This document shows, piece after piece, positions 33,607 through 49,356 of a stretch of DNA of 64,000 nucleotides (position 1 is its first letter; every line of letters starts with the position of its first letter). A model generated the notes under the pieces. That model was not told the DNA's origin, did not search any database, and saw only the letters and a program-made list of their open reading frames with translations. This DNA comes from an uncultured Pelagibacteraceae bacterium. GTDB lineage: Bacteria > Pseudomonadota > Alphaproteobacteria > Pelagibacterales > Pelagibacteraceae. The translations under genes were made by a program, and so were the position numbers. Where the stretch lies: positions 1 to 64,000 of the forward strand of contig CACOLA010000004.1 in the NCBI GenBank assembly GCA_902627935.1, written 5' to 3'.

Positions 33607-35024
33607 TTTTTTTTTAAACTTTGAAAAGCTTTTAATGCTGAAGCCCTAGCTTCTTCATGTATCACTATTGGTTTTGGATAATCTTTTCCAACAATTGTAT
33701 TTATTGCTTGTTGATACTTCATTTCCATTTCCCAAGGCTTATGGATAAATTTTTGCGGAACTTTGTTTAATTCTGGAATCCATTTTTTTACATATTTTCC
33801 CTCTTTATCAAACTTTTCACCTTGGAGAATAGGATTAAAAATTCTGAAATAAGGTGCTGCATCAGCCCCGCAACCTGCAACCCATTGCCACTGAGCTACA
33901 TTATTAGCTTTATTAAAATCAAGTAAACAATTTCTAAAATGTTTTTCACCCTCGGTCCAATTAATCCTTAAATGTTTCACTAAAAAGGAGCCAACTACCA
34001 TTCTTATTCTGTTATGCATCCAACCGGTTTCATATAATTCCCTCATTCCTGCATCTACAATTGGATAACCAGTCATTCCTGATTTCCACGCTTTCAAAAA
34101 TTTTTCATTTTTTACCCACGGAAATTTATCAAATTCTTTTCTATAATTTCCTTTTAAGAACTCTGGAAAATTATTAATCAAACTATGAGAGAACTCACGC
34201 CAACCTAATTCATTAATATATTTTCTATAACCAATACCTTTAGATTTAATGTCATTACACTTTTTCCAAATTGTACTTACATGTATTTGACCGTGTTTAA
34301 TATAAGGAGATAATTTAGATGTGCCCTCTATAGATGGATAATCTCTTGCTGTACCGTATTCTTTAATTTTTAAATTAATTAAACTGTTAAGAACTTTTTT
34401 TGAGTCATTTTCTGAGACCTTCCAATAATTCTCAAATTTTTTATACCAATTTTTTTTTGGTAAAATATTTTTAGGTTCAATACAATTTTTAAAGAAAGAG
34501 ATGGTTTTCGCTTTTTTCTTTACAATATAATTTTTACTTGGTGGTAAACCAAGATATTTTTGTTCTGCATTTCTCCAGAAAGGTGTGAATACTTTAAAAG
34601 GTGTTCCATCATTTTTTGTAACTTCTTGAAATTCATTTAAGATATTTCCTTTAAAATATTTAAATTCAATTTCATTTTTTAAAAAGGTATCTCTAATTTT
34701 TTTTCCTTTTGCAATTACATCAGGTTCATAGATCTTATTCCAATATATTGTAACATCATCTTTTTTTTTGATTTTAGAAAATATATCTATTTCATCACCT
34801 TCTAATATTTGAAGATTTATTTTGTATTTAGACAATTCTGATTTGAATGTTTCCAAAGATTTAAACAACCACCATTTCTGTGCTTCTCTTTTATTATCAA
34901 AATCATTTTTATTATAAATATATAACGCAGCTACATTTTCATGATTTTGTGTGGCATTTGAGAGAGCAGGGTTGTGATCAATTCTAAAGTCTTCTCTTAT
35001 CCAAGTTATTGCATTTTTTGTCAT
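33603..35024 (-). CDS. phr: deoxyribodipyrimidine photolyase / cryptochrome family
   Basis: Light-driven repair enzyme for cyclobutane pyrimidine dimers, apt for sunlit surface water. The long open frame reaches 35102, but the ATG at 35024 gives the canonical start (TKNAITWIREDFRIDHNPAL) and 473 residues, leaving a 7-base gap to the next gene. FAD-binding and catalytic blocks are intact: MHNRIRMVVGSFLVKHL, then NNVAQWQWVAGCGADAAP and YFRIFNP. This set points to class I CPD photolyase rather than a signalling cryptochrome. Confidence 0.9.
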   Translation of the reverse strand: MTKNAITWIREDFRIDHNPALSNATQNHENVAALYIYNKNDFDNKREAQKWWLFKSLETFKSELSKYKINLQILEGDEIDIFSKIKKKDDVTIYWNKIYEPDVIAKGKKIRDTFLKNEIEFKYFKGNILNEFQEVTKNDGTPFKVFTPFWRNAEQKYLGLPPSKNYIVKKKAKTISFFKNCIEPKNILPKKNWYKKFENYWKVSENDSKKVLNSLINLKIKEYGTARDYPSIEGTSKLSPYIKHGQIHVSTIWKKCNDIKSKGIGYRKYINELGWREFSHSLINNFPEFLKGNYRKEFDKFPWVKNEKFLKAWKSGMTGYPIVDAGMRELYETGWMHNRIRMVVGSFLVKHLRINWTEGEKHFRNCLLDFNKANNVAQWQWVAGCGADAAPYFRIFNPILQGEKFDKEGKYVKKWIPELNKVPQKFIHKPWEMEMKYQQAINTIVGKDYPKPIVIHEEARASALKAFQSLKKN

Positions 35025-35031
35025 ATAAAAA

Positions 35032-36165
35032 TTAATTTCTACCTTTAGATAGCAGCTCTTTGTAAAGTTTAACATCTGCATTTCCTTCGCATCCAATAAC
35101 AAGAATGTTGGAATCTTTATTCAAATTTAATGATTTTCTTACTTTAGGATTATTAGCTAAACTTATAAGCGCGATAACCCCCGGGGTTGCACATTCTCCA
35201 CCTATAATTGAACCTTTGCTAAATTTTTTATCTTTTAGCATTGCTGTTGTTTTAGCAACATTATTATCAGCAACAGATACACAATAGTTAGAGGTCTTTT
35301 TTAATATTTGCCATGGAACAAGTGACATTTCATTACATGACATCCCACCCATTATACTCTCTTTTTTTATTCTTATTTTTTTTAGTTTATTTGCTTTTAC
35401 ACTCTGAAGCACACAATCTGCTCTGTCAGGTTCAACAACAATTATTTTTGGAATTCTTTTAAAATATTTTGCCACTCCACCAACTACACCTGCTGCTAGC
35501 CCTCCAACACCAGCTTGAACAAAAATGTGCGTTATGTAATGATTTGTTTGTTTAGATATTTCTTTAATTATAATGGAATAACCAGCCATTGTAAGTTGGG
35601 GAACATACTTATAGTTCTTGGTAGAAACATCCTGAACAATTTGCCAATTATTTTTTTTCGAGAGTCTTTTACATTCTTCTAATGAATTCTCATAATCTCC
35701 TTTAACTCTTATAACCTCAGCACCAAATTTCTCTATTTCACGAACTCTTGTTTGGCTTACATATTGACTTACAAAAATTTTACACTTTAAATTTAATCTT
35801 TTCGCACCCCATGCAACAGACCTGCCATGATTACCAGCTGTTGCTGATGAAATAACAATATTTTTTTTTCCTTTAGATATTCTCTCTACAGCGTATGCTC
35901 CTCCTAAGGCTTTAAAAGACTTTAAGTGAAATCTCTTAGACTCATCTTTATAAAATATATTGTTCAATCTTAAATTTTTTTTTAATTTATCAAGTGATAA
36001 AAGAGGTGTTGCTTTATAATTTTTCCAACTTGATATTGATTTATAGGCATTCAACATTAAACCTGATGGAAGATGTTTTAAAACATAATTTCTTTTAAAA
36101 CTATAATGATTATTTTTTAAAAGTTTTCTAAATTTCCAGCTTTTAAGATCTTTTAAGCTTTTCAC
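35032..36165 (-). CDS. PLP-dependent ammonia-lyase, diaminopropionate ammonia-lyase-like
   Basis: A 377-residue fold-type II PLP enzyme. The Schiff-base lysine lies in KDESKRFHLKSFKALGG, whose SFKALGG wording is typical of diaminopropionate ammonia-lyase. The phosphate or substrate loop is SATAGNHGRSVAWG, and FVQAGVGGLAAG binds the cofactor phosphate. The threonine-dehydratase-like EutB proteins of ectoine operons are also related. The gene starts 1 base after gmaS ends, so it is in the methylamine operon, where it may deaminate a small diamino acid to pyruvate and ammonia. Confidence 0.75.
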   Translation of the reverse strand: MKSLKDLKSWKFRKLLKNNHYSFKRNYVLKHLPSGLMLNAYKSISSWKNYKATPLLSLDKLKKNLRLNNIFYKDESKRFHLKSFKALGGAYAVERISKGKKNIVISSATAGNHGRSVAWGAKRLNLKCKIFVSQYVSQTRVREIEKFGAEVIRVKGDYENSLEECKRLSKKNNWQIVQDVSTKNYKYVPQLTMAGYSIIIKEISKQTNHYITHIFVQAGVGGLAAGVVGGVAKYFKRIPKIIVVEPDRADCVLQSVKANKLKKIRIKKESIMGGMSCNEMSLVPWQILKKTSNYCVSVADNNVAKTTAMLKDKKFSKGSIIGGECATPGVIALISLANNPKVRKSLNLNKDSNILVIGCEGNADVKLYKELLSKGRN

Positions 36166-36166
36166 T

Positions 36167-37492
36167 TTAACAGTCTAAAGTATTGTCTTTTTCCCACTGA
36201 GTGATAGGTCTTTTTTTGTTGAAGTTTTCTTTATTATTAAAATTTTTTATCTCTTGTTTTTTTAATTTTACGTAACTTTGTATCACGTCCTTCCCGAAAG
36301 CGTCTGCAAGAGACTTACTATTTTCAAGCATTTTGATAGCTTGGTTCACGTCATTTGGAAGTTTTTTTAAATTTGGATATTTCTTGTAATCTGTATACAT
36401 GTTGCAGTGCAATGGTTTACCAGGATTAATTTTTTTATTTATACCTTCGAGTCCAGCAGCAATTATTCCAGATTGTAGTAAGTATGGATTAGCTGAACCA
36501 TCCATTAGTCTTAACTCAAATCGGCCTTGATCAGGAATTCTTATCATGTGAGTTCTATTATTTCCCGTATATGAAATACTGCTTGGAGACCAAGTTGCAC
36601 CTGATTTAGTTGGGGGTGCATTAATTCTTCTATAACTATTGATGCTTGGATTGAAAAAAGCAGATAGCGCCTGAGCATTTTTCATTATTCCCCCAAGAAA
36701 ATTATAAGCCAATTTACTCAAACCTAATTTATCTTTCTTATCTAAAAATCTATTATTTTTTCCATTCCACACTGAAACGTGAGCGTGGCAACCATTTCCA
36801 GTTAAGTTATGGAAAGGTTTTGGCATGAAGGTAGCTCTTAGACCATGTTTTTCTGCTAAACTTTTTACCATAAATTTAAAAAAAACATGTCGATCTGCTG
36901 TTATTAAACAGTCAGAATAATCCCAATTCATTTCAAATTGACCATTAGCATCTTCGTGATCATTTTGGTACGGCTTCCATCCTAATTGAAGCATACTGTC
37001 ACAAATTTCTTTGATCAAATTATATCTTCTCATCAAAGCTGATTGATCATAGCAAGGTTTCGATTGAATATCCCGTGGATCAGCAATTGACGATCCATCA
37101 TCAGAAATTAAAAAATATTCACACTCAACACCTGATTTCATTTGTAATTTTTTTTGTGATAATTTTTTAATTTGTTCTTTAAGCATAATTCTTGGAGATG
37201 CTTTGACAGGTTTTCCATCCATATATAAGTCTGATGCTAACCAGCCTATTTCTTTATTCCATGGTAATTGAATTAAACTATTTGGGTCTGGCACACCAAA
37301 CATATCACTATCAGCTGGTGTCATATCTAACCAAGTTGCAAAACCAGCAAAACCAGCACCATTTTTTTGCATTTCACTTATTGCTTGCGCGGGTACAAGC
37401 TTAGATCTTAAGACTCCAAAAAGGTCTACGAAACTTATAAGAAAGTATTTTATTTTTTTTGATTTTGCTATCTGAGATAAATTTTTTGGCAT
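36167..37492 (-). CDS. gmaS: gamma-glutamylmethylamide synthetase (glutamine-synthetase family)
   Basis: ATP-dependent ligase joining methylamine to the gamma-carboxyl of glutamate, the entry step of the N-methylglutamate pathway. The 441-residue protein shows the glutamine-synthetase barrel motifs: NDHEDANGQFEMNW (177-190; EDANGQF is characteristic of gmaS-type sequences), then GNGCHAHVSVW, and RFELRLMDGSANPYLL late. It sits with genes for all three N-methylglutamate synthase subunits on one strand. Glutamine synthetase III (GlnT) is closely related, so ammonia as substrate cannot be excluded from sequence alone. Confidence 0.78.
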   Translation of the reverse strand: MPKNLSQIAKSKKIKYFLISFVDLFGVLRSKLVPAQAISEMQKNGAGFAGFATWLDMTPADSDMFGVPDPNSLIQLPWNKEIGWLASDLYMDGKPVKASPRIMLKEQIKKLSQKKLQMKSGVECEYFLISDDGSSIADPRDIQSKPCYDQSALMRRYNLIKEICDSMLQLGWKPYQNDHEDANGQFEMNWDYSDCLITADRHVFFKFMVKSLAEKHGLRATFMPKPFHNLTGNGCHAHVSVWNGKNNRFLDKKDKLGLSKLAYNFLGGIMKNAQALSAFFNPSINSYRRINAPPTKSGATWSPSSISYTGNNRTHMIRIPDQGRFELRLMDGSANPYLLQSGIIAAGLEGINKKINPGKPLHCNMYTDYKKYPNLKKLPNDVNQAIKMLENSKSLADAFGKDVIQSYVKLKKQEIKNFNNKENFNKKRPITQWEKDNTLDC

Positions 37493-37526
37493 ATTTAATC
37501 TTAATTATTTAAAAGATGCCTAGCAA

Positions 37527-38855
37527 TCATTTTTTTTCTTTTATTCCTGGTATCCAATTGCTTCCAGCAAGTGGAACTCGTGCCATTGCTGCGGCCTCTA
37601 CAGTCAATGCGCATAAATCCTCAGGTTCTAAATTATGTAAACTATTTTTACCACATGCTCTTGCAAGCGTTTGAGCTTCTAAAGTCATAACTTTTAAATA
37701 ATTAGTAAGTTTTTTTCCTGCTTTTTTAGGGTCTAATCTTTTCATTAATTTTGGATTTTGAGTAGAAATTCCTGCTGGATCATTCCCTTCATGCCAATCA
37801 TCATATGCTCCGGCAGTAGTACCAAGTTTTTTATAATCATTTTCCCATTTAGGATCATTATCTCCTATAGCAATCATAGCTGCACTACCAATTGAAACTG
37901 CATCTGCACCTAATGCAAGCGCTTTAGCAACATCAGCCCCATTTCTTATTCCACCTGAAATTACTAATTGTACTTCTCTATGAACATCTAGATCTTGAAG
38001 AGCATCAACAGCAGGTCTTATACACGCTAAAGTAGGTTGTCCCACATTTTCAATAAATACTTCTTGGGTAGCTGCAGTTCCACCTTGCATTCCATCAAGA
38101 ACAACAACATCAGCACCAGCCTTAACAGCTAAAGCTGTATCATAATATGGTCTTGCACCTGCAATTTTGATAAAAATAGGGACTTGCCACTTAGTAATTT
38201 CCCTTAATTCTAAAATTTTTATTTTAAGATCGTCTGGACCAGTCCAGTCAGGATGTCTACACGCTGATCTTTGATCTACCCCTTTAGGTAAAGTTCTCAT
38301 TTTTGCAACACGGTCATTAATTTTTTGACCTAATAACATTCCTCCACCTCCAGGTTTTGCACCTTGTCCTATGACTACTTCTATTGCGTCTGCTTTTCTC
38401 AAATCATCAGGATTCATTCCGTATCTTGACGGAAGCAATTGATAAACTAAATATTTTGATTGTCCTCTCTCTTCAGGTGTCATACCGCCGTCACCAGTGG
38501 TTGTTGACGTACCAGCTGCACTTGCTCCTCTTCCCAAGGCTTCTTTAGCTGCACCAGATAAGGCTCCAAAACTCATGCCAGCAATAGTAATTGGTATATC
38601 AAGTTCCAACGGTTTTTTTGCGTACCTAGTTCCTAAAGTAACATTTGTAGTGCATTTTTCTCTGTAACCTTCTAAAGGATACCTTGACATTGAAGCGCCT
38701 AAAAATAATAAATCATCAAAATGGGGGAGCTTTCTTTTTGATCCTCCACCCCTAATATCATAAATACCTGTAGCTGCTGCTCTTCTAATTTCAGAATTTG
38801 TGTATTCATCGAAAGTCCAAGATTGTCTAGGATGAGTTTTATTATTTTTTTTCAT
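37527..38855 (-). CDS. mgsC: N-methylglutamate synthase subunit C (FMN glutamate-synthase-like)
   Basis: A 442-residue homologue of the FMN-binding barrel of glutamate synthase. Landmarks are ITIAGMSFGALS, TGDGGMTPEER, QGAKPGGGG, RHPDWTGPDDL and the FMN phosphate site GGIRNGADVAKALALGADAV (301-320). Family role: transfer of methylamine from gamma-glutamylmethylamide to 2-oxoglutarate to give N-methylglutamate. The segment that binds the 3Fe-4S cluster in glutamate synthase (CxxxxCPVGxATQ) reads DDWHEGNDPAGISTQ at about 352-366 with no cysteine. It is followed by gmaS (34-base gap) and preceded by mgsB (2-base gap). Confidence 0.8.
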   Translation of the reverse strand: MKKNNKTHPRQSWTFDEYTNSEIRRAAATGIYDIRGGGSKRKLPHFDDLLFLGASMSRYPLEGYREKCTTNVTLGTRYAKKPLELDIPITIAGMSFGALSGAAKEALGRGASAAGTSTTTGDGGMTPEERGQSKYLVYQLLPSRYGMNPDDLRKADAIEVVIGQGAKPGGGGMLLGQKINDRVAKMRTLPKGVDQRSACRHPDWTGPDDLKIKILELREITKWQVPIFIKIAGARPYYDTALAVKAGADVVVLDGMQGGTAATQEVFIENVGQPTLACIRPAVDALQDLDVHREVQLVISGGIRNGADVAKALALGADAVSIGSAAMIAIGDNDPKWENDYKKLGTTAGAYDDWHEGNDPAGISTQNPKLMKRLDPKKAGKKLTNYLKVMTLEAQTLARACGKNSLHNLEPEDLCALTVEAAAMARVPLAGSNWIPGIKEKK

Positions 38856-38857
38856 TA

Positions 38858-39535
38858 TTAATAATTATTATCGATTTTAAAATTGTACAATTTTCTTGCC
38901 GAACCATATCTTTTAAAGCTTTCTGCTTTATGGTTTTTTATTTCAGCATTTTTTAAAAATTTTCTTAATTTATTGATATGTTTTTTATCCATTTTTTTTT
39001 CAACACAATCCGCACCCAAAGATTTTACATTTCCTTTAATATAGATATTTGTTTCATATAAACTGTCTCCTAATGCCTCACCAGCATCTCCACAAACTAC
39101 TAGATTACCAGACTGAGACATGAAACCTGACATATGTCCAACTGAACCTTTAACAATAATATCTGCACCTTTCATTGATATCCCGCATCTTGAACTTGCA
39201 TCTCCATCTATTATTAAAAGACCGCCATGTGCTGTTGCACCAGCAGATTGGGAAGCATTTCCTTTAACATGAACCTTTCCAGACATCATATTTTCAGCCA
39301 CACCTGTGCCAACGTTTCCTTCAATTGTAATAGTTGCCTTCTTGTTCATCCCTGCACAATAATAACCAACATGACCTTTAATTGTTACATTCATTTCTTT
39401 ATCTAATCCTGCACAGATTGCATGGTTTCCTTCAGGGTTGATAATAGTAAAATCTCTTTCATTAGTTTTTCTATCGAGATTTTGTAATTTGTCGTTAACG
39501 TTTCTTAATTCTAATTTTTTTAAGTCTAATTCCAT
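38858..39535 (-). CDS. mgsB: N-methylglutamate synthase subunit B (GXGXG domain)
   Basis: A 225-residue right-handed beta-helix of the GXGXG type, matching the C-terminal domain of glutamate synthase. Repeats such as VTIKGHVGYYCAG, ITIEGNVGTGVAE, VHVKGNASQSAGA and IIVKGSVGHMSGF stack at about 19-residue spacing. Its role in the complex is structural, channelling ammonia or methylamine between amidotransferase and FMN sites. The ATG at 39535 overlaps the mgsA stop as TAATG; the TTG at 39547 would add only four residues. Confidence 0.82.
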   Translation of the reverse strand: MELDLKKLELRNVNDKLQNLDRKTNERDFTIINPEGNHAICAGLDKEMNVTIKGHVGYYCAGMNKKATITIEGNVGTGVAENMMSGKVHVKGNASQSAGATAHGGLLIIDGDASSRCGISMKGADIIVKGSVGHMSGFMSQSGNLVVCGDAGEALGDSLYETNIYIKGNVKSLGADCVEKKMDKKHINKLRKFLKNAEIKNHKAESFKRYGSARKLYNFKIDNNY

Positions 39536-40416
39536 TAATTGCCCCAAGAATAAACTACACCTGGCTCTGGCTCAAAAATTTTAGCATTATTCACCTCAGG
39601 AAGATGTGCCATGGCTTGAAATTCAGATGCTATAGCTACGTAATCATCTGTTTCAGCAATAACTGCTGGTTTACAGGCGATTTCATCTCGTAAAACTGCA
39701 AAACCATCTTTTGTACCAGTAATAAAAGTATAAAAACCGTCTAAGTCTTTCAGACTATCTTTAAGAGTCTCTTTCAAATTTTTCTTATTAGAGAGATTAT
39801 TTGAGATATATCCAGCTGCTACTTCAGTATCATTTTCTGAGTCAAAATTTACTCCATCTTTTTTCAACTTTCTTCTCAGATTATTATGATTTGATAAAGA
39901 ACCATTATGAACTAAGCATTCATCTTCTCCAGTAGAATAGGGGTGTGAACCGTCAGTAGTAATCGCACTTTCAGTTGCCATTCTTGTATGCCCAATAGCA
40001 TGAGAACCAGAGTAATCATCAAGTTTAAATTTCTTAACAACTTCACTAGGATCCCCAACTTGTTTAAATATCTCAATTGATTTACCATAACCTACCAATG
40101 AAACATCTTGAAAGTGTTTTTTAAGAATAGCCAACATAGCCTCAGGCTTTAAAGATGTTTTTAAAATGACATGATCTGAATTTTTTTTTAGTTCAGCTTC
40201 AATATGTTTATTGATTCTTTCCTCAAAATCTTTAAAATTTAACTTATTAATACATATTGAGTATTTAAATCTTTCTTTTTCCTCTTTTTTATATATCGCA
40301 AAGCCTGCACTATCTGGACCACGTGAACCCATGTTAATTAGCATTTTTGATAAAAGGGATCCAAGTGAGTTTTTTAATTTCTCATTTTTTAAATAAATTC
40401 CAACTATTCCACACAT
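39535..40416 (-). CDS. mgsA: N-methylglutamate synthase subunit A (class II amidotransferase)
   Basis: A 293-residue Ntn-type glutamine amidotransferase. Cys2 of MCGIVGIY is the nucleophile, exposed after Met removal. Further motifs are SRGPDSAGFAIY, IGHTRMATES, the LVHNGSLSNHNNLR oxyanion region and NDTEVAAGY. In this complex the domain should release methylamine from gamma-glutamylmethylamide. It is separated from the 52-residue ORF by 7 bases and overlaps mgsB by one base. Confidence 0.82.
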   Translation of the reverse strand: MCGIVGIYLKNEKLKNSLGSLLSKMLINMGSRGPDSAGFAIYKKEEKERFKYSICINKLNFKDFEERINKHIEAELKKNSDHVILKTSLKPEAMLAILKKHFQDVSLVGYGKSIEIFKQVGDPSEVVKKFKLDDYSGSHAIGHTRMATESAITTDGSHPYSTGEDECLVHNGSLSNHNNLRRKLKKDGVNFDSENDTEVAAGYISNNLSNKKNLKETLKDSLKDLDGFYTFITGTKDGFAVLRDEIACKPAVIAETDDYVAIASEFQAMAHLPEVNNAKIFEPEPGVVYSWGN

Positions 40417-40423
40417 GATTTTT

Positions 40424-40582
40424 TTATTTAATTAAAGATAATAAGAAGTCTTTATAGTAAATAGCATTAACCAAAACAATAATGATTATTGCGGCAAAGA
40501 CACCATACTTTGCTTTTGGAAAGGCTACACCTCTCATTTTACTTGGTCTTAATTCCTCGTTATTTTTGTTTTCTTTTGACAT
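40424..40582 (-). CDS. small single-span membrane protein (52 aa)
   Basis: A short reading frame read directly from the minus strand: ATG at 40582, TAA at 40424, 52 residues. It begins MSKENKNNEELRPSKMRG, a charged cytoplasmic stretch, then has a basic FPKAKYG and one hydrophobic helix (about 27-42, containing AAIIIIVLVNAIYY) and a short tail ending LIK. It lies 7 bases before mgsA and just after a strong hairpin, so it would be the first gene of the mgsA-B-C-gmaS run. Hydrophobicity pattern and tight spacing support it as real. Its function is unknown. Confidence 0.55.
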   Translation of the reverse strand: MSKENKNNEELRPSKMRGVAFPKAKYGVFAAIIIIVLVNAIYYKDFLLSLIK

Positions 40583-40583
40583 T

Positions 40584-40618
40584 GAATAAAAAAAGGGCGC
40601 CACATCTCTGTGGCGCCC
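40584..40618 (-). terminator. strong intrinsic terminator between the amt unit and the mgs/gmaS operon
   Basis: GGGCGCCAC (40595-40603) pairs perfectly with GTGGCGCCC (40610-40618) around a 6-base loop. On the minus strand it is followed by a run of Ts (As at 40587-40594), the standard terminator layout. On the plus strand a T run also follows, so it could work both ways. Only 2 bases separate it from the start codon of the 52-residue ORF, which implies that the mgs genes are reached by read-through. Confidence 0.85.
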
Positions 40619-40631
40619 AAATTTTTTTTAA

Positions 40632-40862
40632 TTACCAATCGGTAATATTACTTTTATAGTCGTTAGCGCTATGTCTTTTTTTAGATAGTCTATCAAGTTC
40701 TTGACTTTCAGACCTTCCAGTTAAAACATGCCAACCTACCCATAAAACAATTGCCAATATAACTAGCAATCCCTCAGTGGATCCAGCACCAGGATAAACA
40801 GCACCAACAACTTCCTCTGCTGGTTTATTTAGGTGATCTATCCAGTTTGTAACAGTCGCCAT
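40632..40862 (-). CDS. small single-span membrane protein (76 aa)
   Basis: A 76-residue protein with MATVTNWIDHLNKPAEEVV, then one helix (about 30-47, LLVILAIVLWVGWHVLTG) and a basic, acidic tail rich in Lys, Arg and Ser. Its ribosome site AAGGAGGAA is strong. It lies 12 bases after amt and just before the terminator at 40.6 kb, so it should be expressed with the ammonium channel. It could be an Amt- or Mgs-associated membrane subunit, but I recognise no family. Confidence 0.65.
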   Translation of the reverse strand: MATVTNWIDHLNKPAEEVVGAVYPGAGSTEGLLVILAIVLWVGWHVLTGRSESQELDRLSKKRHSANDYKSNITDW

Positions 40863-40874
40863 ATATTTCCTCCT

Positions 40875-42275
40875 TTACCTGGTTGCGGATGCTACTGCTT
40901 TTTCATCATCTTTAGCAGCTTCCATTATTTCATAGTCGAGTCCAGCTATCTCCGCTTCACGAGGAATTCTTAATTTACCCATTCCGTGAAGAACTTTAGC
41001 TATAATGTAACCTGGTATTAGTCCAAGAACTACGAACATTATTAATGCTCCTATGAACTGTCCTAATGGGTTAATTGTAGCATAAGTTGTTCCATCCCAC
41101 ATAGCACCAACACTGTAACCAGATGATGGGTAACCATTTAAGACAAAACCACAAATGACTAGACCAATAAATCCAGCATAACCATGTACTGCTACTGCAC
41201 CAACTGCATCATCAATTTTGAACTTACGTTCAACCCAATAATGTAGTTTGTATGAAATAACAACACCGATCATACCGATAATCATTGCTTGAATTGGATG
41301 ATATAAATCATTTCCAGCAGAAGCACATATTATACCTGCTAGTCCACTTGAGTATGTCCAGAAAGGATCACCTTTAGCAATCCAATAACCGGCTAATAAC
41401 CCTCCAGATAGTGACATCAAAAAGTTAAAAGTAATACCACTAAGTGTAGTAGGGGTTACGTATATGTTTGTAGCTGTCCAATAACTTATTCCTTCCATAC
41501 CGTATTCAGGTCCAAGATCAAAAATTGGTATATTACATGCTGCGTAGAAGCCCCAGAAACCAGTATAGATCAAAAATAATCCAATAGTTACAAGCCAAGG
41601 ATTTCTTGGTCCAATGTTTCTTGGTTCTCCACTTGATGAGAATTTTCCAATTCTTGGTCCTAAAACCATCAGAACACCTAAAGCAAATCCACCAGCAATT
41701 GCGTGAATTACTCCTGATGCATAAGCATCATGATATCCTAAAAGTTTTAACATCCAGCCATCAAAGTGCCATCCCCAAGCAGCATCTATTACCCAGAAAA
41801 CAGATCCAATTGCAATTGCTAAAATTCCAAATGCAAATGTAGTTATTCTTTCGATGATTGCCCCAGAGACAATGGAAGCAGCAGTCCATGAGAATAATAA
41901 GAATGCCGCCCAGAATACACCAGATATATGGTCTCCTAGGTTGACAGCCATTAAATCACTTGTTGCTGTATACCATGTTGCACTAAAAGCAGAATCATCT
42001 GTAATTAATGCAGAACTTTCATTCATTATTGATGGTGCTAATCCCGGTCCTGTCGGGAAAGCCCAATAAATCCACCAACCAAATAAAAACCAAGTTACTG
42101 TTACCAAAGGTATCAGCATTGTGTTTTTCATAAGAGTATGTTGGTGATGTTTGTATCGAGAAGCTCCGACCTCATACATACAGAAACCGACGTGAATTAA
42201 AAACATCAGTACTACCGTCACCCAGTAGTAAAATTCTGTAAATATGGTTGTAAGAGCAGCTAACTGATCAGTCAT
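40875..42275 (-). CDS. amt: ammonium transporter
   Basis: Integral membrane channel/transporter for ammonium and possibly methylammonium, 466 residues with about eleven helices. Recognisable Amt motifs: the VVLMFLIHVGFCMYEVG first helix, DAAWGWHFDGW, YGSVIHAIAGGFALG-type histidine helix (read here as SGVIHAIAGG) and AVHGYAGFIGL. The frame extends to 42326, but the ATG at 42275, with an AAGGAG site 6 bases upstream, gives the expected start MTDQLAAL. It sits between two GS/GOGAT-like modules, consistent with scavenging ammonia or methylamine for them. Confidence 0.93.
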   Translation of the reverse strand: MTDQLAALTTIFTEFYYWVTVVLMFLIHVGFCMYEVGASRYKHHQHTLMKNTMLIPLVTVTWFLFGWWIYWAFPTGPGLAPSIMNESSALITDDSAFSATWYTATSDLMAVNLGDHISGVFWAAFLLFSWTAASIVSGAIIERITTFAFGILAIAIGSVFWVIDAAWGWHFDGWMLKLLGYHDAYASGVIHAIAGGFALGVLMVLGPRIGKFSSSGEPRNIGPRNPWLVTIGLFLIYTGFWGFYAACNIPIFDLGPEYGMEGISYWTATNIYVTPTTLSGITFNFLMSLSGGLLAGYWIAKGDPFWTYSSGLAGIICASAGNDLYHPIQAMIIGMIGVVISYKLHYWVERKFKIDDAVGAVAVHGYAGFIGLVICGFVLNGYPSSGYSVGAMWDGTTYATINPLGQFIGALIMFVVLGLIPGYIIAKVLHGMGKLRIPREAEIAGLDYEIMEAAKDDEKAVASATR

Positions 42276-42373
42276 ATTCTCTCTCTCCTTATTTAGTTTT
42301 GAAAACCCTATTAAATTTTTAGACAAGTGACAAATAAAAGAAGCGCAAAAAACCCAACTAAGACAACAGGTTT

Positions 42374-42396
42374 CAAAAAAAAATCAACTTTTGATT
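42374..42396 (-). terminator. weak intrinsic terminator after the 138-aa ORF
   Basis: AATCAA (42382-42387) pairs with TTGATT (42391-42396) around a 3-base loop, and on the minus strand the stem runs into a series of Ts (A run at 42375-42383). It lies just downstream of the 42403-42819 gene and would end the second GS/GOGAT-like operon, leaving about 100 bases upstream of amt for its own promoter. Confidence 0.5.
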
Positions 42397-42402
42397 GAAG
42401 GA

Positions 42403-42819
42403 TTAGAATTTTAGGTATGCTTTTTTCAAATCAACAAGAGGGTGTTTTGGAGACATTTGAAATTTTACTAGCAGTTCTCTTGCTATCATATCTCTATCTT
42501 GTTGATTGTTAGGTAATTTTATTGATTTTGGTATTGTGACCCAGCCATTTGCATTTCTACAAAAAACTGCCGGTCTATCCTCCTCATACCCCATATGAAC
42601 ATCCTCTAACCAATTTAAATCATCCCATCCCATTGCTTCTATATACTTTTTTAGAAATGGAGTGATTTTACTGTAATCAGGTAAAAGGTTTACATCATAT
42701 CGGTAACCAATTGATTGACCGATCATTTTTTCTCTGGCTGTTTCTGCTTTTTTACCTAGTTGACCTTTAATTTCTTTGCCATTTGCTTTAACTAGTTTTT
42801 TACCCTTTTTCTTTGCCAT
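42403..42819 (-). CDS. conserved-looking hypothetical protein, lysine-rich N-terminus
   Basis: A 138-residue soluble protein I do not recognise. Residues 1-32 are strongly basic (AKKKGKKLVK, then KGQLGKKAETAREK). The rest is mixed alpha/beta with an IGYRYDVNLLPDYSKITPFL segment, YIEAMGWDDLNWLEDVHMGY and CRNANGWVTIPKSIKLPNN. The preceding FMN-subunit gene also begins with a lysine-rich stretch (KKKSKKIKKNGKG) and lies 11 bases upstream. It is the last gene of the second GS/GOGAT-like operon, and may be an accessory subunit. Confidence 0.6.
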   Translation of the reverse strand: MAKKKGKKLVKANGKEIKGQLGKKAETAREKMIGQSIGYRYDVNLLPDYSKITPFLKKYIEAMGWDDLNWLEDVHMGYEEDRPAVFCRNANGWVTIPKSIKLPNNQQDRDMIARELLVKFQMSPKHPLVDLKKAYLKF

Positions 42820-42830
42820 GGTTGTTATCC

Positions 42831-44243
42831 TTATATTTTATGATAGTTATCAACTCCAACAGTATAATTCGTGCCAGCTAATGGAACTTTTGCTAAAGCC
42901 GAAGCTTCAGACGTTAATGCAGCTAAATCTTCAGGCTCTAAAGAATGGATATTTGTCTTTCCACAAGCTCTTGCTAAAAGTTGTGCCTCTAAGGTCATAG
43001 AGTGTAAATAGTTATAAACTCGTAAAGCAGCATCATCTGGATTTAGTCTAGCTCTTAATTTAGGATCTTGGGTAGCAACACCTACTGGACATCTACCAGT
43101 GTGACAGTGATAACACTCACCTGCTTTAACACCCATCTCTTTCTCAAAGTTTGCCTCTGGAATATCTTTATTACAATTTAATGCAATCATAGAACCAGTA
43201 CCAATAGCAATTGCATCAGCTCCAAGAGCTAAAGCTTTAGCCATATCAGCACCATCTCTTACCCCACCAGCATAAATTAATGTTACTTTTCCAGTTTTAC
43301 CAACATCATCAATTGCTCTTCTAGCTTCTCTAATCGCAGCAATCCCTGGAATACCAGTGTTAGCTGCAGCTATATGAGGACCTGCTCCAGTGGAACCTTC
43401 CATTCCATCAAGATATATAGAGTCTGGGTCACATTTTGCAGCCATTCGAACATCATCATAAACTTTAGAAGCTCCTAATTTTAATTGAATAGGAACTTTG
43501 TTTTTAGTTAATTGTCTTAACTCTTCAACCTTTAAAGCTAAATCATCAGGGCCTAACCAGTCAGGATGTCTTGCTGGTGATCTTTGATCAATACCAGATG
43601 GTAATGATCTCATTTCAGCTACCTGGTCAGTAACTTTTTGGCCCATTAAGTGACCACCCATCCCTACTTTTTGTCCTTGTCCGATAAAAACTTCAATTCC
43701 ATCTGCTAATTGTGCGTGATGAGGATTGAAACCATATCTTGATTGAATACATTGATAATACCATTTTTCAGAATATCTTCTTTCGTCTGGTATCATTCCA
43801 CCTTCTCCCGAACATGTAGCACTACCAGCCATTGTTGCTCCTCTTGCTAAAGCAGTTTTTGCTTCGTAAGAGAGTGCTCCAAAACTCATTCCAGTTATGT
43901 AAACAGGAATGTCAAGTTCTATAGGATTTTCACATCTTGGTCCAATTACAGTTTTAGTTTCACACTTTTCCCTGTAACCTTCAATTACAAATCTTGTTAA
44001 GGTTCCAGGTAAGAAAACTAAATCATCAAATGTAGGAATTTTTTTCATAAGCGCCATTCCACGCATTCTATATCTTCCTAATTGCGATTTAATATGTATG
44101 TCGTCGATTACTTCAGGGGTAAAAATTGCATTATGACCTAATAAACTTTTATTTCTCTTACCCTCTTCGTGTACATGAACGTCTGCTTTTCCTCCAACAC
44201 CTTTTCCATTTTTTTTTATTTTCTTACTTTTTTTCTTAGGCAT
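42831..44243 (-). CDS. FMN-binding glutamate-synthase-like subunit (second MgsC/GlxD-type copy)
   Basis: A 470-residue paralogue of the mgsC product. The core motifs (ITGMSFGALSYEAK, RHPDWLGPDDL, the FMN site GGVRDGADMAKALALGADAI) match. Unlike the first copy it keeps an iron-sulfur-type cysteine motif CYHCHTGRCPVGVATQ (Cys377, Cys380, Cys385). A basic, His-rich 30-residue N-terminal extension is also particular to this copy. The start overlaps the GXGXG gene stop (TAATG). It probably forms a split glutamate-synthase-like complex with the next two genes; acceptor and amide donor are not settled. Confidence 0.82.
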   Translation of the reverse strand: MPKKKSKKIKKNGKGVGGKADVHVHEEGKRNKSLLGHNAIFTPEVIDDIHIKSQLGRYRMRGMALMKKIPTFDDLVFLPGTLTRFVIEGYREKCETKTVIGPRCENPIELDIPVYITGMSFGALSYEAKTALARGATMAGSATCSGEGGMIPDERRYSEKWYYQCIQSRYGFNPHHAQLADGIEVFIGQGQKVGMGGHLMGQKVTDQVAEMRSLPSGIDQRSPARHPDWLGPDDLALKVEELRQLTKNKVPIQLKLGASKVYDDVRMAAKCDPDSIYLDGMEGSTGAGPHIAAANTGIPGIAAIREARRAIDDVGKTGKVTLIYAGGVRDGADMAKALALGADAIAIGTGSMIALNCNKDIPEANFEKEMGVKAGECYHCHTGRCPVGVATQDPKLRARLNPDDAALRVYNYLHSMTLEAQLLARACGKTNIHSLEPEDLAALTSEASALAKVPLAGTNYTVGVDNYHKI

Positions 44244-45097
44244 TAAATTGCTCCCTTCTTCTCTGTAGGTTCTAAATTATCATAATTCCAAAGTTTTTTA
44301 CCAGCTACAATTTTTTTCATTTTACTTACATCAAAATTTTCACCAATTTCTGCAACTTTAAGTTTTCTCCTCAACCAATCTTGGTCACTTGATGTTAATT
44401 CTGAATCTACTGCATCACTACCATAAGAGCCAATTTTTCCACCTACAAAAATTGTCCCATCATACATTGAGTCACCTAAGTTTATTCCAACATCTCCAAG
44501 TATGATTATTCTACCTCTTTGCATCATAAAACCTGTGAATGCGCCAGCATCTCCTCCAATTATGATTGTTCCACCTTTCATGTCAATACCAGTTCTTGCT
44601 CCAACGCTACCTTTGCAAATTAGGTCTCCACCTCTAATAGCTGCTCCAAAACATGAACCTGCATTTTTTTCAATCACTACTTTTCCAGCCATTAAATTTT
44701 CTGCACATGACCAACCAACTCTCCCATTTATCCTTACTATTGGACCATCACATGAACCCATACCAAAATAACCCAAGCTTCCCTCAAAAATCAAATTTAA
44801 TTTATTTAAAATACCAACACCTAAACTATGTTTTCCTTGAGGATTTTTGATTACTATTGTTCCATAACCCTGGCTCATTAAATTATCTATTTCTTTATTA
44901 GCTTCAGGAGCAGTCATATTTTTTACGTCCAAATCAGTTCTTTTATTAAAATCTACATCATAAGTTCCAAAATAGTAAAAGTTTTCAGCTTCATCTGGGT
45001 TGAAAAATTTTTGTTGAGTTCTACCGGTAAGTACCTCAGTATGCATACCCATAGCTTGTGCTTTAGTTTTTTTAGAGCCAGTTTTTATATTTGCCAT
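44243..45097 (-). CDS. GXGXG-domain glutamate-synthase-like subunit (second MgsB/GlxC-type copy)
   Basis: A 284-residue paralogue of mgsB, about 60 residues longer at the N-terminus (MANIKTGSKKTKAQ then a FNPDEAENFYYFGTYDVD segment). The beta-helix repeats are LIFEGSLGYFGMG, VRINGRVGWSCAE, VVIEKNAGSCFGA and IIIGGDAGAFTGF. It should bridge the amidotransferase and FMN subunits. Its ATG lies 13 bases inside the preceding amidotransferase gene. Confidence 0.85.
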   Translation of the reverse strand: MANIKTGSKKTKAQAMGMHTEVLTGRTQQKFFNPDEAENFYYFGTYDVDFNKRTDLDVKNMTAPEANKEIDNLMSQGYGTIVIKNPQGKHSLGVGILNKLNLIFEGSLGYFGMGSCDGPIVRINGRVGWSCAENLMAGKVVIEKNAGSCFGAAIRGGDLICKGSVGARTGIDMKGGTIIIGGDAGAFTGFMMQRGRIIILGDVGINLGDSMYDGTIFVGGKIGSYGSDAVDSELTSSDQDWLRRKLKVAEIGENFDVSKMKKIVAGKKLWNYDNLEPTEKKGAI

Positions 45098-46029
45098 ACT
45101 TTAACCTCCCCATCAAAAGGATCATAGGTATCAATTTCTTGAGGTAAAACAGATCTAATTGCAATTTCTTCAGATCCCATCGCTACCAAATCATCAGACT
45201 CGTAAAGAACCAATGGTTTCGCTGCCATAGTGTCTTTTGCCATCCCCAAAGAGTCCTTAGTTGCAACAAAATATGTAAATACACCATCAAGACCAGTTAA
45301 AGAATCTTTCATTCCCTCTTTAAGGGTCGCACCTTCTCTCATTTTTTGAGCAATATAAACAGCTATAAGTTCAGAATCACATTCTGACATAAACCTCATC
45401 CCTTTGTTTTCTAGCGCTCTTCTATTGTTCCAATAATTTGTAAGTTGTCCATTATGAACTACAGAAACATCACTAAAAGGATAACCCCAAAAAGGGTGAG
45501 CTGATTTAATATCAACACCTGACTCTGTAGCCATTCTTGCATGACCAATTGCGTGAGTGCCTACTAATTTATCTAGAGAATATCTTTCACAAACAGCTTT
45601 AGCATTTCCTAGATCCTTAATTACTTCTAATGATTTTCCCATTGATAAAATTTCAACACCTGGAATACTCTCAATAGTTTGAGAGAAATTTAAAAGGTCT
45701 TTAACATTGTAATCAATTTCATATCTTAATGAATAGGGAAGCGTTCGCTCCTCTTTTATTATTTTGGCTCCAAGTTCAACCAACGTTTGGTCTACTATTT
45801 TTTTTCTTTCATCATATACAGATACATCTTCCATAACTGAGGAAGATCCTTCTCCAACATTTTCACCAACTTTAAAACGCATTATAAAGTTTTTACCGTC
45901 TGTATCACCATATAAAGCATAACCTGTTGAATCTTCTCCTCTATGTTTTAATGCTTGAAGCATACCTTGAAGTTCACTTCCAACATTTGAAGATTTTCCT
46001 CTATGAATTAAACCGGCTATTCCACACAT
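45085..46029 (-). CDS. class II glutamine amidotransferase (second MgsA/GlxB-type copy)
   Basis: A 314-residue Ntn amidotransferase. The open frame reaches 46125, but Met at 46029 is the functional start because Cys2 of MCGIAGLIH must become N-terminal. Other motifs are KHRGEDSTGYALYG, IGHARMATESGVD, VVHNGQLTNYWNN and CDSELIAVY. It overlaps the GXGXG gene by 13 bases and lies 29 bases after the glutamine-synthetase-like gene. It matches the first-set mgsA product in layout but with distinct sequence. Confidence 0.85.
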   Translation of the reverse strand: MCGIAGLIHRGKSSNVGSELQGMLQALKHRGEDSTGYALYGDTDGKNFIMRFKVGENVGEGSSSVMEDVSVYDERKKIVDQTLVELGAKIIKEERTLPYSLRYEIDYNVKDLLNFSQTIESIPGVEILSMGKSLEVIKDLGNAKAVCERYSLDKLVGTHAIGHARMATESGVDIKSAHPFWGYPFSDVSVVHNGQLTNYWNNRRALENKGMRFMSECDSELIAVYIAQKMREGATLKEGMKDSLTGLDGVFTYFVATKDSLGMAKDTMAAKPLVLYESDDLVAMGSEEIAIRSVLPQEIDTYDPFDGEVKVWQI

Positions 46030-46058
46030 AAACTTTACCCTTTCTTCAATTTTGCGAC

Positions 46059-47528
46059 CTATGGTAAACAATCTAGATAAGTATCTAGATCCCATTGAGT
46101 TGTTGCTCCCAAAAATTTCTCCCATTCATCATTTTTGTACCAATGAAATATTTTATACATTTCATCTGGCATCGCTGATTGAACTACATTATCCTCAGAC
46201 AATCTTTCAAGCGCCTCACCTAAACTTAAAGGTAATTTTTTAACATCTTTACCTGCTTTTTGAGCCTCATATATATTTCTAGACTCTGGTTTACCTGGAT
46301 CAATTTTATTTGTTAAGCCATCGTCCATTGTTTTAAGTAAAGCTGCACCCATTAAATATGGATTATGCATAGAATCAACTGATCTATATTCAAATCTACC
46401 AGGCGCTGAAACTCTTAATCCACAAGTTCTGTTCTGATATCCCCAGTCTGCATAAACTGGCGCCCAAAAACCTTGATCCCAAAGTCTTCTATAAGAATTA
46501 ACTGTCGATGATCCAATAGCCGTTAAAGCTGGCAAGTGTTTCATAATACCACCAATTGACATTAATCCTACTTTTCCTGGAAGCTGCATATCCTTTGTAT
46601 CAGGCATAAAAGTGTTTGTTCCACCCTGAACGTAAGTAAACACCTCTTCTACTCCTGGTAATGTTTTGTGTCCTAATTTGTTGACTACATCCTTTCCACC
46701 TTTCCATAAAGATAGGTTAGTGTGACAACCACTTGCAGAAACTCCCATAAATGGTTTAGTCATAAAACAAGCTATCAAGCCATGTTCTCTTGCTACTTGA
46801 GCACAGATTTGTCTATAAGTGGAAAGTCTGTCAGCATTTCTTAGCACATCATCAAACATCCAGTTTAATTCTAATTGACCTGGTGCATCTTCATGATCAC
46901 CCTGGATCATATCAAGACCCATAGCGTTTGCATATTCTATAACTTTCATGAAAACGGGTCTTAGTGATTCAAACTGATCGATGTGATAACAGAAAGGTTT
47001 TGAAAATCCTTTTCCTGTTGGTGTACCATCTTCATTTTTAGTTAACCACATCATTTCAGGTTCAGTACCAACTCTCATTTGGTAACCATGTTTTTTCTTA
47101 AATTCTTCTGCGATAATTCTTAGGTTTCCTCTACAATCAGAAGTTAAATGACCACCTGGATTTTCTCTTTCTTCCCTATTTCTAAAACAAGTGCAAAAAA
47201 CTCTTCCAACTCTCTTGTCCCAAGGTAATTGAACAAAGGTCTCTGGATCAGGTATACCAACTAATTCTTTAGCTTCTGGACCATAACCAATGTAATTATT
47301 GTGACGATCTAAAAATAAGTTCGCAGTTGCCCCATAAACAAGTTGAAATCCTTTTTCAGCAGTTCTCTCCCAGTGATCTGCTGGAATACCTTTTCCAACT
47401 ACTCTTCCTGTTACCGAGATAAATTGAAAATAAATATAAGTTATTCCTAATTCATTAATTTTATCTCGAACTTTTTTTACTAATTTTGCTCTTCCTGGTT
47501 GGTTAACATGTTTTTCTAGATCAGTCAT
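46059..47528 (-). CDS. glutamine-synthetase-family ligase (divergent GlnT-like)
   Basis: A 489-residue GS-fold enzyme clearly different from the gmaS product. Core motifs are GDHEDAPGQLELNW (210-223), ASGCHTNLSLW, TVNSYRRLWDQGFWAP and GRFEYRSVDSMHNPYL. Relative to GmaS it has a Pro-Leu in place of Asn...Phe in the DHED motif and an extra N-terminal 20 residues. The ATG has a GGGGA ribosome site. It heads the second GS/GOGAT-like operon. Likely reaction: ATP-dependent amide formation on glutamate with ammonia or an amine, the amine not being predictable from sequence. Confidence 0.82.
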   Translation of the reverse strand: MTDLEKHVNQPGRAKLVKKVRDKINELGITYIYFQFISVTGRVVGKGIPADHWERTAEKGFQLVYGATANLFLDRHNNYIGYGPEAKELVGIPDPETFVQLPWDKRVGRVFCTCFRNREERENPGGHLTSDCRGNLRIIAEEFKKKHGYQMRVGTEPEMMWLTKNEDGTPTGKGFSKPFCYHIDQFESLRPVFMKVIEYANAMGLDMIQGDHEDAPGQLELNWMFDDVLRNADRLSTYRQICAQVAREHGLIACFMTKPFMGVSASGCHTNLSLWKGGKDVVNKLGHKTLPGVEEVFTYVQGGTNTFMPDTKDMQLPGKVGLMSIGGIMKHLPALTAIGSSTVNSYRRLWDQGFWAPVYADWGYQNRTCGLRVSAPGRFEYRSVDSMHNPYLMGAALLKTMDDGLTNKIDPGKPESRNIYEAQKAGKDVKKLPLSLGEALERLSEDNVVQSAMPDEMYKIFHWYKNDEWEKFLGATTQWDLDTYLDCLP

Positions 47529-47598
47529 AATCCCCTTTGTTAAGAATTTTTAGTACAAAAAGGTAACTGAAAAAAAAACGTCTGTCTACTTAGATCAA

Positions 47599-48924
47599 CT
47601 AGCTCCAAGGAAACGGACTGTTCGAAGTAGGGTGTAGTTCACCCTTCTCGTATCGGTTGAATCTAAATGGTTTCAACAAGTCACTTTCTTGTCCTAAAAT
47701 CTCTTTCGCTACCAGTTCACCAACACCAATCATTTTATAACCATGATTAGCATCAGCAATCATATAAACATTTTCTAAAAATCTATCAAATATTGGAAAC
47801 GAGTCAGGCGTCATACATCCAAGACCACCAGATGGACCTTTTCTGTAAAGATCAGACTTTCCTTCAAATCTTTTTTGGCAGTGTGCAAGTGCAGAACACC
47901 ACATATCATTAAAAGCTTCAGTAGTCTGATATTCTGGCGATTCAACTCCATAAGGATCTACATTCACTTGATCAAAATGTTTGTCTACAATGTAAGGTGA
48001 CGTACCACCTTGAACACCTAATCCATCAATATCAGGTTTATAATAGATGCCCCAAATTTTATCAGTGATTAATTTTTTTGTTCTGTCAGAATATAAGGGA
48101 GCAGTGGAGTCAACATGAATTACTGGTGGTGCTTCACCGTTGTTCATTTTTAAAAAATCTGGATCAACACCAATTACACCTTCTTGTAACATCCAATATG
48201 TCCACATATCAGTTGTATGCATTTTTCCATCTTTACCTTTGATGTTTGCAGTTTTAGGAAGTTCAAGCATGTTCCAAAAATCTCTAGCCCATGGTCCAGC
48301 ACCTATGACTACTTGTTCACAATCGATTGTACCTTGGTTTGTTTCAACTCCAGTAACTGCTTTACTATTGCTACCTCTTTTAAACCCATTTACTTTTACA
48401 CCTTTGATAACTTGTACGCCATTAGTTGTAGATTTTTTTTCCAATGCTTTAATTGAGTCTTTATTAAATGCATAACCACCTTTTTTTTCATGAAGAACAG
48501 AAGTGATTCCTTGAGCTTGCCAGTCATCAAACATGCCCTTCATATAATTCATACAATCTTTCTCACCCTCAATAAACTCAGAGTCATAGCCAATAGCTTT
48601 TTGTTGTTCATATATTGTTGCAACATCTTCATGCATTACTTCAGGTGATATTTGCAAATAACCAACTGCATTATATTTGAATGCTTTAGGATCACTTTCC
48701 CAAACTGAAACTGAATGAGCCATTAGCTCTCTCATTGCGGGTTGAAAATAATTATTTCTAATTACCCCACAGGCAATTCCACTTGCACCAGCAGCAGTAT
48801 CTTTTTTTTCTAATACAACAATATCTCCAGGATTTTTATAAGTTTCTGATAATTTCCAAGCAGTACTAAGACCGTGGATTCCACCACCAATTATTACTAC
48901 TTTTGCTTTTGTCGGTAATGACAT
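47599..48924 (-). CDS. FAD-dependent oxidoreductase of the DAO / sarcosine-oxidase-like family
   Basis: A 441-residue flavoprotein. The N-terminal dinucleotide motif is VVIIGGGIHGLSTAWKL (10-26), then EKKDTAAGASGIACG with the FAD ribose contact, a central VVIGAGPWARDFW and a C-terminal GGLGCMTPDSFPIFDR plus GHGYK-like ANHGYKMIGVGEL. The family oxidises secondary and tertiary amines (sarcosine, dimethylglycine, N-methyl amino acids). It is 70 bases upstream of the GS-like gene on the same strand. A role in amine demethylation is plausible but unproven. Confidence 0.82.
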   Translation of the reverse strand: MSLPTKAKVVIIGGGIHGLSTAWKLSETYKNPGDIVVLEKKDTAAGASGIACGVIRNNYFQPAMRELMAHSVSVWESDPKAFKYNAVGYLQISPEVMHEDVATIYEQQKAIGYDSEFIEGEKDCMNYMKGMFDDWQAQGITSVLHEKKGGYAFNKDSIKALEKKSTTNGVQVIKGVKVNGFKRGSNSKAVTGVETNQGTIDCEQVVIGAGPWARDFWNMLELPKTANIKGKDGKMHTTDMWTYWMLQEGVIGVDPDFLKMNNGEAPPVIHVDSTAPLYSDRTKKLITDKIWGIYYKPDIDGLGVQGGTSPYIVDKHFDQVNVDPYGVESPEYQTTEAFNDMWCSALAHCQKRFEGKSDLYRKGPSGGLGCMTPDSFPIFDRFLENVYMIADANHGYKMIGVGELVAKEILGQESDLLKPFRFNRYEKGELHPTSNSPFPWS

Positions 48925-48957
48925 ATTAAGAACTTTATTTTTCGTGCAACTTAAATA

Positions 48958-48986
48958 TATAATTTTTTATATATATAAAAATTATA
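48958..48986. promoter_or_regulatory. AT-only imperfect palindrome upstream of the FAD oxidoreductase gene
   Basis: The 81-base gap between marR-like and oxidoreductase genes holds a 29-base, nearly symmetric A/T stretch, TATAATTTTTT...AAAAATTATA, centred on ATATATAT. It could be an operator for the adjacent MarR-like regulator or a weak terminator for its gene. Such repeats are common by chance in DNA this AT-rich. Confidence 0.25.
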
Positions 48987-49005
48987 AGTAAAAAATTATA
49001 TAACT

Positions 49006-49356
49006 TTAAAAACTTAGATTTTTAAGTGTTTCAAGATATTGATTGAATTCTGTAATGAAAGACTGACTTGGTTTAATGTGTTTTTTTCTTTGGTCGCCTG
49101 ATGTTTTCTCGAGAAAAAAGAACCCCTTCTCACAAGCTTCATTTATCATTAAAGCTGATTTTGGCCGAGAAGTTTTAAATAATTTTGTTTTTAATTCCTC
49201 TACTGTTAAATTTTCCTCATACTTGAAGGCATGCATAACTAGAAGCATCATGTGATAATGAGAGGGTGATTTCCTAAAAAAATAATTGCTAGACATGTGA
49301 GAGAGCTTCATTTGATCTTCCCAAAACTCTAATAAATCTTTTGTAGTTTTAGCCAT
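49006..49356 (-). CDS. MarR-like winged-helix regulator
   Basis: A 116-residue protein with winged-helix layout: the recognition helix region TVEELKTKLFKTSRPKSALMINEACEKG is followed by a wing FFFLEKTSGDQRKKHIKPS, resembling the DxR(R/K) turn of MarR proteins. It is shorter than typical MarR (about 140), so flanking dimerisation helices are reduced. Its ATG shares one base with the tdm stop. It may respond to a methylamine or one-carbon signal and control tdm and the downstream genes. Confidence 0.65.
   Translation of the reverse strand: MAKTTKDLLEFWEDQMKLSHMSSNYFFRKSPSHYHMMLLVMHAFKYEENLTVEELKTKLFKTSRPKSALMINEACEKGFFFLEKTSGDQRKKHIKPSQSFITEFNQYLETLKNLSF

Follow-up and report, generated by a model that had tools for sequence, protein, structure and literature searches.

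A conserved small single-span protein encoded beside an Amt-family transporter in the methylated-amine region of SAR11 genomes

Genes and features around p52

The window, by which we mean the whole stretch of 64,000 nucleotides of Pelagibacteraceae DNA analyzed here, carries on its minus strand a run of genes in which a short frame, p52, is embedded. Because Tdm and Tmm are present above the NCBIfam cut-offs in the wider window, the region can be recognized as the SAR11 methylated-amine region. In the direction of the minus strand, the features are:

42831..46125, minus strand: mgsABC2, a second MgsABC/glutamate-synthase-like set, the upstream part of the common cluster
42403..42819, minus strand: p138, very conserved and of no assigned family, upstream of amt
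40875..42326, minus strand: Amt, a divergent member of the Amt family of ammonium transporters (the longest frame begins at a TTG)
40632..40862, minus strand: p76, a 76-aa single-span protein directly upstream of p52
40588..40618, minus strand: terminator-like hairpin separating p76 from p52; 10 pairs, 8 of them GC, and a T7 tract
40424..40582, minus strand: p52, a 52-aa single-span protein with a conserved motif before its helix
39535..40416, minus strand: mgsA1, 7 bases downstream of p52 in the window genome
37527..39547, minus strand: mgsB1 and mgsC1
36167..37492, minus strand: GMAS, gamma-glutamylmethylamide synthetase of the type III GS family

The p52 frame starts at ATG 40582 and ends at TAA 40424 (minus strand 40582-40424, sequence MSKENKNNEELRPSKMRGVAFPKAKYGVFAAIIIIVLVNAIYYKDFLLSLIK). 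It translates into 52 residues, and its stop is separated by 7 bases from the ATG of mgsA1 (40416). In these respects, as in the presence of a 76-aa single-span membrane protein upstream at 40632 (40632-40862), the window agrees with the original prediction made from it, in which the 10-pair hairpin with its T7 tract between p76 and p52 went unmentioned. For Amt, ATG 42275 is a likelier start than the TTG of the longest frame. The 441-aa enzyme is called GMAS because it resembles a type III ligase of known structure, 7cql (E 1.8e-170). p138 has at least 79% identity in 25 representative family homologues; it has no Pfam or NCBIfam match and no convincing PDB match, and its AlphaFold model is weak (pLDDT 56.5). 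The Rfam search of window positions 34000-50000 gave one sub-threshold snoRNA match, on the plus strand inside mgsC2, which we take as chance.

The annotation of p52 can be followed through locus tags. In PMC2704228, 1245732-1245856 is the intergenic stretch before amt SAR11_1310, and since these bounds match genome G026 of our set exactly, that genome is HTCC1062. glxBCD are SAR11_1313-1315 in PMC3160333, and a glnT is SAR11_1305 in PMC5069961. With amt at 1310 and glxBCD at 1313-1315, two tags are left, so that by elimination p76 and p52 are SAR11_1311 and SAR11_1312. The two frames are found in G026 at 1247269-1247493 and 1247554-1247706, respectively. p52 is therefore probably SAR11_1312 and already annotated in HTCC1062, and its description as unannotated in the original prediction was probably wrong. 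In the literature found, only SAR11_1310 is named among SAR11_1310 to 1312. Literature searches returned no study of p52, which does not prove that there is none, and PMC13198564 contains no Amt or glnT terms.

RNA data from the Red Sea are given in PMC5069720, in which Amt and p76 are among the SAR11 genes with the most RNA reads. The amt of HTCC7211 has 806 TSS reads and 2751 RNA-Seq reads, and PB7211_885 has 153 and 1799, respectively. The end of PB7211_885 is the p76 stop in genome G035, and its listed start falls inside amt. p52, mgs1 and GMAS are absent from the table, which covers top genes only and has no length normalization.

Elsewhere in the window, a 116-aa frame at 49006-49356 (minus strand), between Tdm and a SoxB-like FAD oxidase, has no NCBIfam match and is 75% identical in HTCC1062. 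Because the tags SAR11_1303 and 1304 are consecutive, this frame is seemingly unannotated there.

p52 is a gene under purifying selection

A tblastn search with p52 matches 153 of the 397 family genomes at E values up to 0.1. The set kept comprises 141 genomes (E up to 1.6e-6), including one truncated copy and some copies at contig edges. Twelve weak matches (E 0.003-0.1) were left out; of the five of these listed with a frame, four sit in frames of 291-614 residues. By reading of the table, the 141 genomes belong to 7 of the 14 genera of the family. A scan of GTDB contigs gave 463 p52 relatives among 494 pattern matches, and the best 80 of the 463 are all titled Pelagibacteraceae, Pelagibacterales or Pelagibacter. 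A class-wide scan found matches in 5 of 385 genomes, none of them convincing outside the family: G000 and G003 are of the same genus, G009 is a weak match in the same family, G397 is weak and G515 is strong. There is no match in phage and plasmid records. On the sequences searched, p52 is specific to the SAR11 family.

Horizontal transfer was considered for G515 and rejected. Its contig (L169) has leuBCD-asd-like genes of another bacterium and then SAR11 p52-GMAS, the genome is marked as 5% contaminated, and the contig is probably an assembly chimera.

Coding was tested on 116 distinct 32-codon cores from 159 motif-bearing loci, repeats included. The cores were chosen by tblastn and the motif P[KN][AS][KR]YG, a choice that favors intact copies; the G152 locus (L051, the same as L173), a truncated remnant without the motif, was left out. 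None of the 116 cores has a stop in the p52 frame. Stops occur in 116 and 111 of them in the other two forward frames, and in 82, 98 and 116 in the reverse frames. Pooled pN/pS is 0.16, the median dN/dS is 0.10 (899 pairs of 80-97% identity), and the mean column entropy at codon positions 1, 2 and 3 is 0.64, 0.32 and 1.25. In the 20 loci read from other genera, the '1 TAA' flags mark the normal ends of homologues that are a little shorter, mostly 45-48 aa. p52 is thus a genuine gene under purifying selection, and the absence of stops together with the low dN/dS rules out a chance frame. The claim of a real, conserved small single-span membrane protein in the methylamine cluster has held up, and the check proposed for it, a search of relatives for stops or frameshifts, gave no stop in any of the 116 cores.

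In the protein, a single helix is combined with a charged tail and a basic motif. Among 40 homologues 6 of the 52 residues are invariant (M1, P13, M16, P22, Y26 and G27), and five of the six lie inside the motif P-x-[KR]-M-x-x-[ILMV]-[ASTV]-[FW]-P-[KN]-[AS]-[KR]-Y-G on the N-terminal side of the helix. AlphaFold predicts the helix at residues 24-42, with block pLDDT of 79 (residues 21-30), 95 (31-40) and 85 (41-50). Neither Pfam, whose PII domain PF00543 is accordingly absent from p52, nor PHROGs gives any match. NCBIfam gives a single sub-threshold match, to EptA (12.1 bits against a cut-off of 660), and a search of the PDB with the A1 profile gives none. By the positive-inside rule, the positively charged flank of a membrane helix is its cytosolic side. 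Because the positive charges of p52 are mostly N-terminal of the helix, the conserved stretch is expected to face the cytosol, and the N-terminus and motif are probably located there.

Gene order and the hairpin behind p76

The common order of the cluster is mgsA2-B2-C2-p138-Amt-p76-hairpin-p52-GMAS; in the window, mgsABC1 is placed between p52 and GMAS. p76 lies directly before p52 in all of the best 80 relatives (the named loci) and in a list of 50 loci, two sets that overlap. At L075 the pairing of p76 and p52 is kept even though mgsABC2-p138 is 7 kb away. The named loci are the copies most like the p52 of the window, and mgsA1 is over-represented there: the gene after p52 is mgsA1 in 45 and GMAS in 35. 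Behind mgsABC1, GMAS follows in 40 of the 45, the other five ending at a contig edge. In most of the loci read that are free of mgsABC1, GMAS comes directly after p52, G049 being the exception. The original prediction had two small proteins between amt and mgs, which is correct for the window and is not general, the usual next gene being GMAS. In G390 (locus L174) a 214-aa gene at 5748-6392 (minus strand), presumably oxygenase-like from its motif, is inserted between the hairpin and p52. The insert overlaps the p52 start; p52 remains beside GMAS and the hairpin beside p76. In G182 (contig C15, 65820-67143, around L026), GMAS is matched as two overlapping pieces with a stop and may be broken or mis-sequenced; the adjacent p52 is intact.

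The hairpin of the window ends 5 bases before the p52 ATG and has a folding z-score of -5.3. With a GC-rich stem followed by a T tract, it has the makings of an intrinsic terminator. Hairpins are present in 127 of 129 distinct loci; dinucleotide-shuffled versions of these stretches form one in 25 of 1290 cases. All 127 have at least 9 pairs and at least 6 GC pairs, which none of the shuffles has, and at 114 loci at least 5 T are found within the next 8 bases. The two remaining loci are on the chimeric contig of G515 and in G390; in the latter, a hairpin stays behind p76. The pairing was also compared in 72 distinct hairpins. These rows were picked for forming the stem, which favors pairing; a one-column misalignment in one sub-group works the other way. 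In these rows 91.6% of cells are paired against 82.1% in shuffles, and 55 cells have a double change against 17.2. Two-sided change is seen at 5 stem pairs. These changes point to a stem kept by covariation, though in rows so picked and with a number of two-sided pairs that 52 of 500 shuffles reach as well.

A conserved terminator-like hairpin thus stands between p76 and p52, which are not simply adjacent members of a single unit. The distance from the T tract to the p52 ATG is 2-23 bases (50 loci), and that from the p52 stop to the next gene is 3-19 bases (147 rows, with some loci entered more than once). In the window there is no consensus promoter match between the hairpin and the p52 ATG. 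Because 2-23 bases leave little room, read-through from the amt promoter would be the simplest source of p52 mRNA. The hairpin would then let only part of the amt-p76 transcripts continue, and p52 and the later genes would most likely be made in smaller amounts than the transporter. The arrangement in G390 would also suit a simple terminator at the end of an operon, p52 then belonging to the unit that follows.

With a hairpin immediately before it and the next gene 3-19 bases away, the p52 frame could also be a cis-acting leader (a uORF or attenuator peptide) for the genes downstream, its product having no role in trans. However, a leader peptide is expected to show no amino-acid selection beyond its regulatory codons, and in p52 such selection extends along motif and helix, as the median dN/dS indicates. 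Moreover, p52 is kept beside two different downstream genes, mgsA1 and GMAS, in G049 it has no co-directional gene close behind, and the GMAS of G212 stands without it. We consider a leader function very improbable.

In part of the genus (e.g., L028 and L179), an element like CTATGTTA..TAA is found shortly before the GMAS ATG, and an element of this kind also precedes the relocated GMAS of G212. It may be a candidate GMAS promoter that overlaps the 3' end of p52.

Amt, GMAS and MGS as candidate partners

The roles open to p52 can be compared by asking which neighbor it follows. Among the 397 family genomes, p52 is found in 141, this Amt (E up to 1e-120) in 139 and the two together in 138. GMAS is found in 139, with p52 in 138 of them, and mgsA1 in 24, all of which are p52 genomes. 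The original prediction tied p52 to the mgsA operon and proposed that p52 and p76 dock the amine-assimilation complex at the membrane, taken here as N-methylglutamate synthase (mgsABC1). The 7 bases to mgsA1 in the window and mgsA1 as the next gene in 45 of the 80 named loci, the copies most like that of the window, speak for such docking. However, a member of the synthase operon should be constantly present with mgsA1, which accompanies p52 in just 24 of 141 genomes; elsewhere GMAS is next in the loci read, save in G049. In addition, G152 retains mgsABC1 and GMAS while its p52 is truncated and no Amt is found. The tie to mgsA is thus not a property of the family, and docking of the synthase is hardly credible as the role of p52.

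p52 and Amt disagree in four genomes. In G010 and G312, p52 sits where the contig stops; G180 has a broken assembly in which Amt is partial; the fourth is G152. p52 and GMAS disagree in G270 and G294, where again p52 is at contig ends, and in G049 and G212. In G049 (86% complete), Amt-p76-p52 is intact, no GMAS is found, and the genes behind are on the other strand. In G212, GMAS is elsewhere in the genome, without Amt or p52. Since co-occurrence with p52 is 138 of 141 for Amt and GMAS alike, only G049, G152 and G212 separate the two. These natural splits, few as they are, favor Amt over GMAS as the partner.

A role with GMAS would be that of a membrane tether: by keeping the cytosolic enzyme close to the pore of Amt, p52 would allow methylammonium to be captured as soon as it enters. 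This moves the docking idea of the original prediction from MGS to GMAS. The near-constant company of GMAS (138 of 141), its position next to p52 or behind mgsABC1 in the named loci (35 of 80, and 40 of the remaining 45, with 5 at a contig edge), and the persistence of p52 beside GMAS in G390 are as expected of a tether. But G212 has GMAS and no p52, G049 has p52 and no GMAS was found, and in G152 an intact GMAS lies next to what remains of p52. Also, gmaS is common in marine bacteria according to the abstract of PMC7948447, whereas the class scan of 385 genomes gave no convincing p52 beyond the family.

Distances among homologues bear on both partners. Whole-core p52 distances (87/103 loci with all genes) have a partial r of 0.56 with GMAS given Amt and of 0.42 with Amt given GMAS; with p76 taken into account, the contribution of Amt is small (0.13). 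The two halves of the core behave differently (87 loci). With GMAS controlled for, the N-terminal half follows p76 (0.70) and Amt (0.56), though Amt drops to 0.04 given p76, and GMAS given Amt is likewise at 0.04. For the C-terminal half, the value is 0.65 with GMAS given Amt and 0.18 with Amt. The agreement with GMAS, above all in the C-terminal half, is in line with a tether. The split behavior points to joints of recombination within p52 or close to it; because linkage together with recombination would give the same pattern, the co-variation proves no contact either way. A GMAS tether, the main rival to a role with Amt, appears to us rather unlikely, if worth keeping in mind.

The best explanation, tentative and in our judgment approaching an even chance, is that p52 is an accessory or regulatory subunit of Amt, which is encoded two genes upstream. 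With one helix in the membrane and its N-terminus in the cytosol, p52 would present its 15-residue membrane-adjacent stretch to the cytosolic face of the Amt assembly, possibly including p76, and the contact would adjust the stability or gating of Amt. Small membrane proteins that bind transporters, such as AcrZ and MgtS, are known; as described in PMC10710835, they have about 30-55 residues, are membrane-embedded or transporter-bound, and change the activity, specificity or stability of the transporter. p52 resembles them in size (below about 60 residues), in its single predicted transmembrane helix and in its genetic link to a transporter (138 genomes have both, p52 being in 141 and Amt in 139); it would resemble them in action only if it does bind Amt. 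Unlike them, p52 matches no named family of the libraries searched, and its partner would be an Amt. The constant order Amt-p76-p52 in the loci read and the predicted single helix would equally suit a chaperone-like helper in the assembly or insertion of Amt, without regulation of transport. Lower expression behind the hairpin, however, fits a regulator just as well, and we think such a helper distinctly improbable.

A regulatory subunit of Amt invites comparison with GlnK/PII and AmtB (PMC10710835): like GlnK, p52 has its gene near amt, and its presumed site of action is on the cytosolic side of the transporter. Unlike PII proteins, it would be membrane-anchored and has no PII domain, and PII itself (PF00543) was detected in 0 of 10 SAR11 genomes, with 13 of 14 controls positive. 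Among free-living alphaproteobacteria, SAR11 is reportedly the first whose nitrogen response is independent of PII. This reported independence raises the question of how uptake of ammonium or methylamine is gated in SAR11. It is conceivable, though quite improbable, that p76 and p52, in opposite orientation, replace GlnK at the Amt of SAR11, in which no PII was detected, the terminator within the operon fixing the ratio of transporter to regulator. Being small, conserved and linked to Amt, p76 and p52 together offer a direct target for the study of methylammonium uptake.

The SAR11 methylamine cluster glxBCD-glnT (SAR11_1313-1316) of PMC3160333 is the same locus as that of p52. That paper treats the enzymes; 'hypothetical' and 'ammoni-' do not occur in its text, so that the small proteins and the transporter are seemingly left aside there. 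At 42831-47528 (minus strand), a second glutamine-synthetase-like gene and a second MgsABC-like set lie near Tdm. Since SAR11 is reported, in PMC8918994, to have no DMA monooxygenase dmmDABC, this second set is a candidate and could be part of another dimethylamine route.
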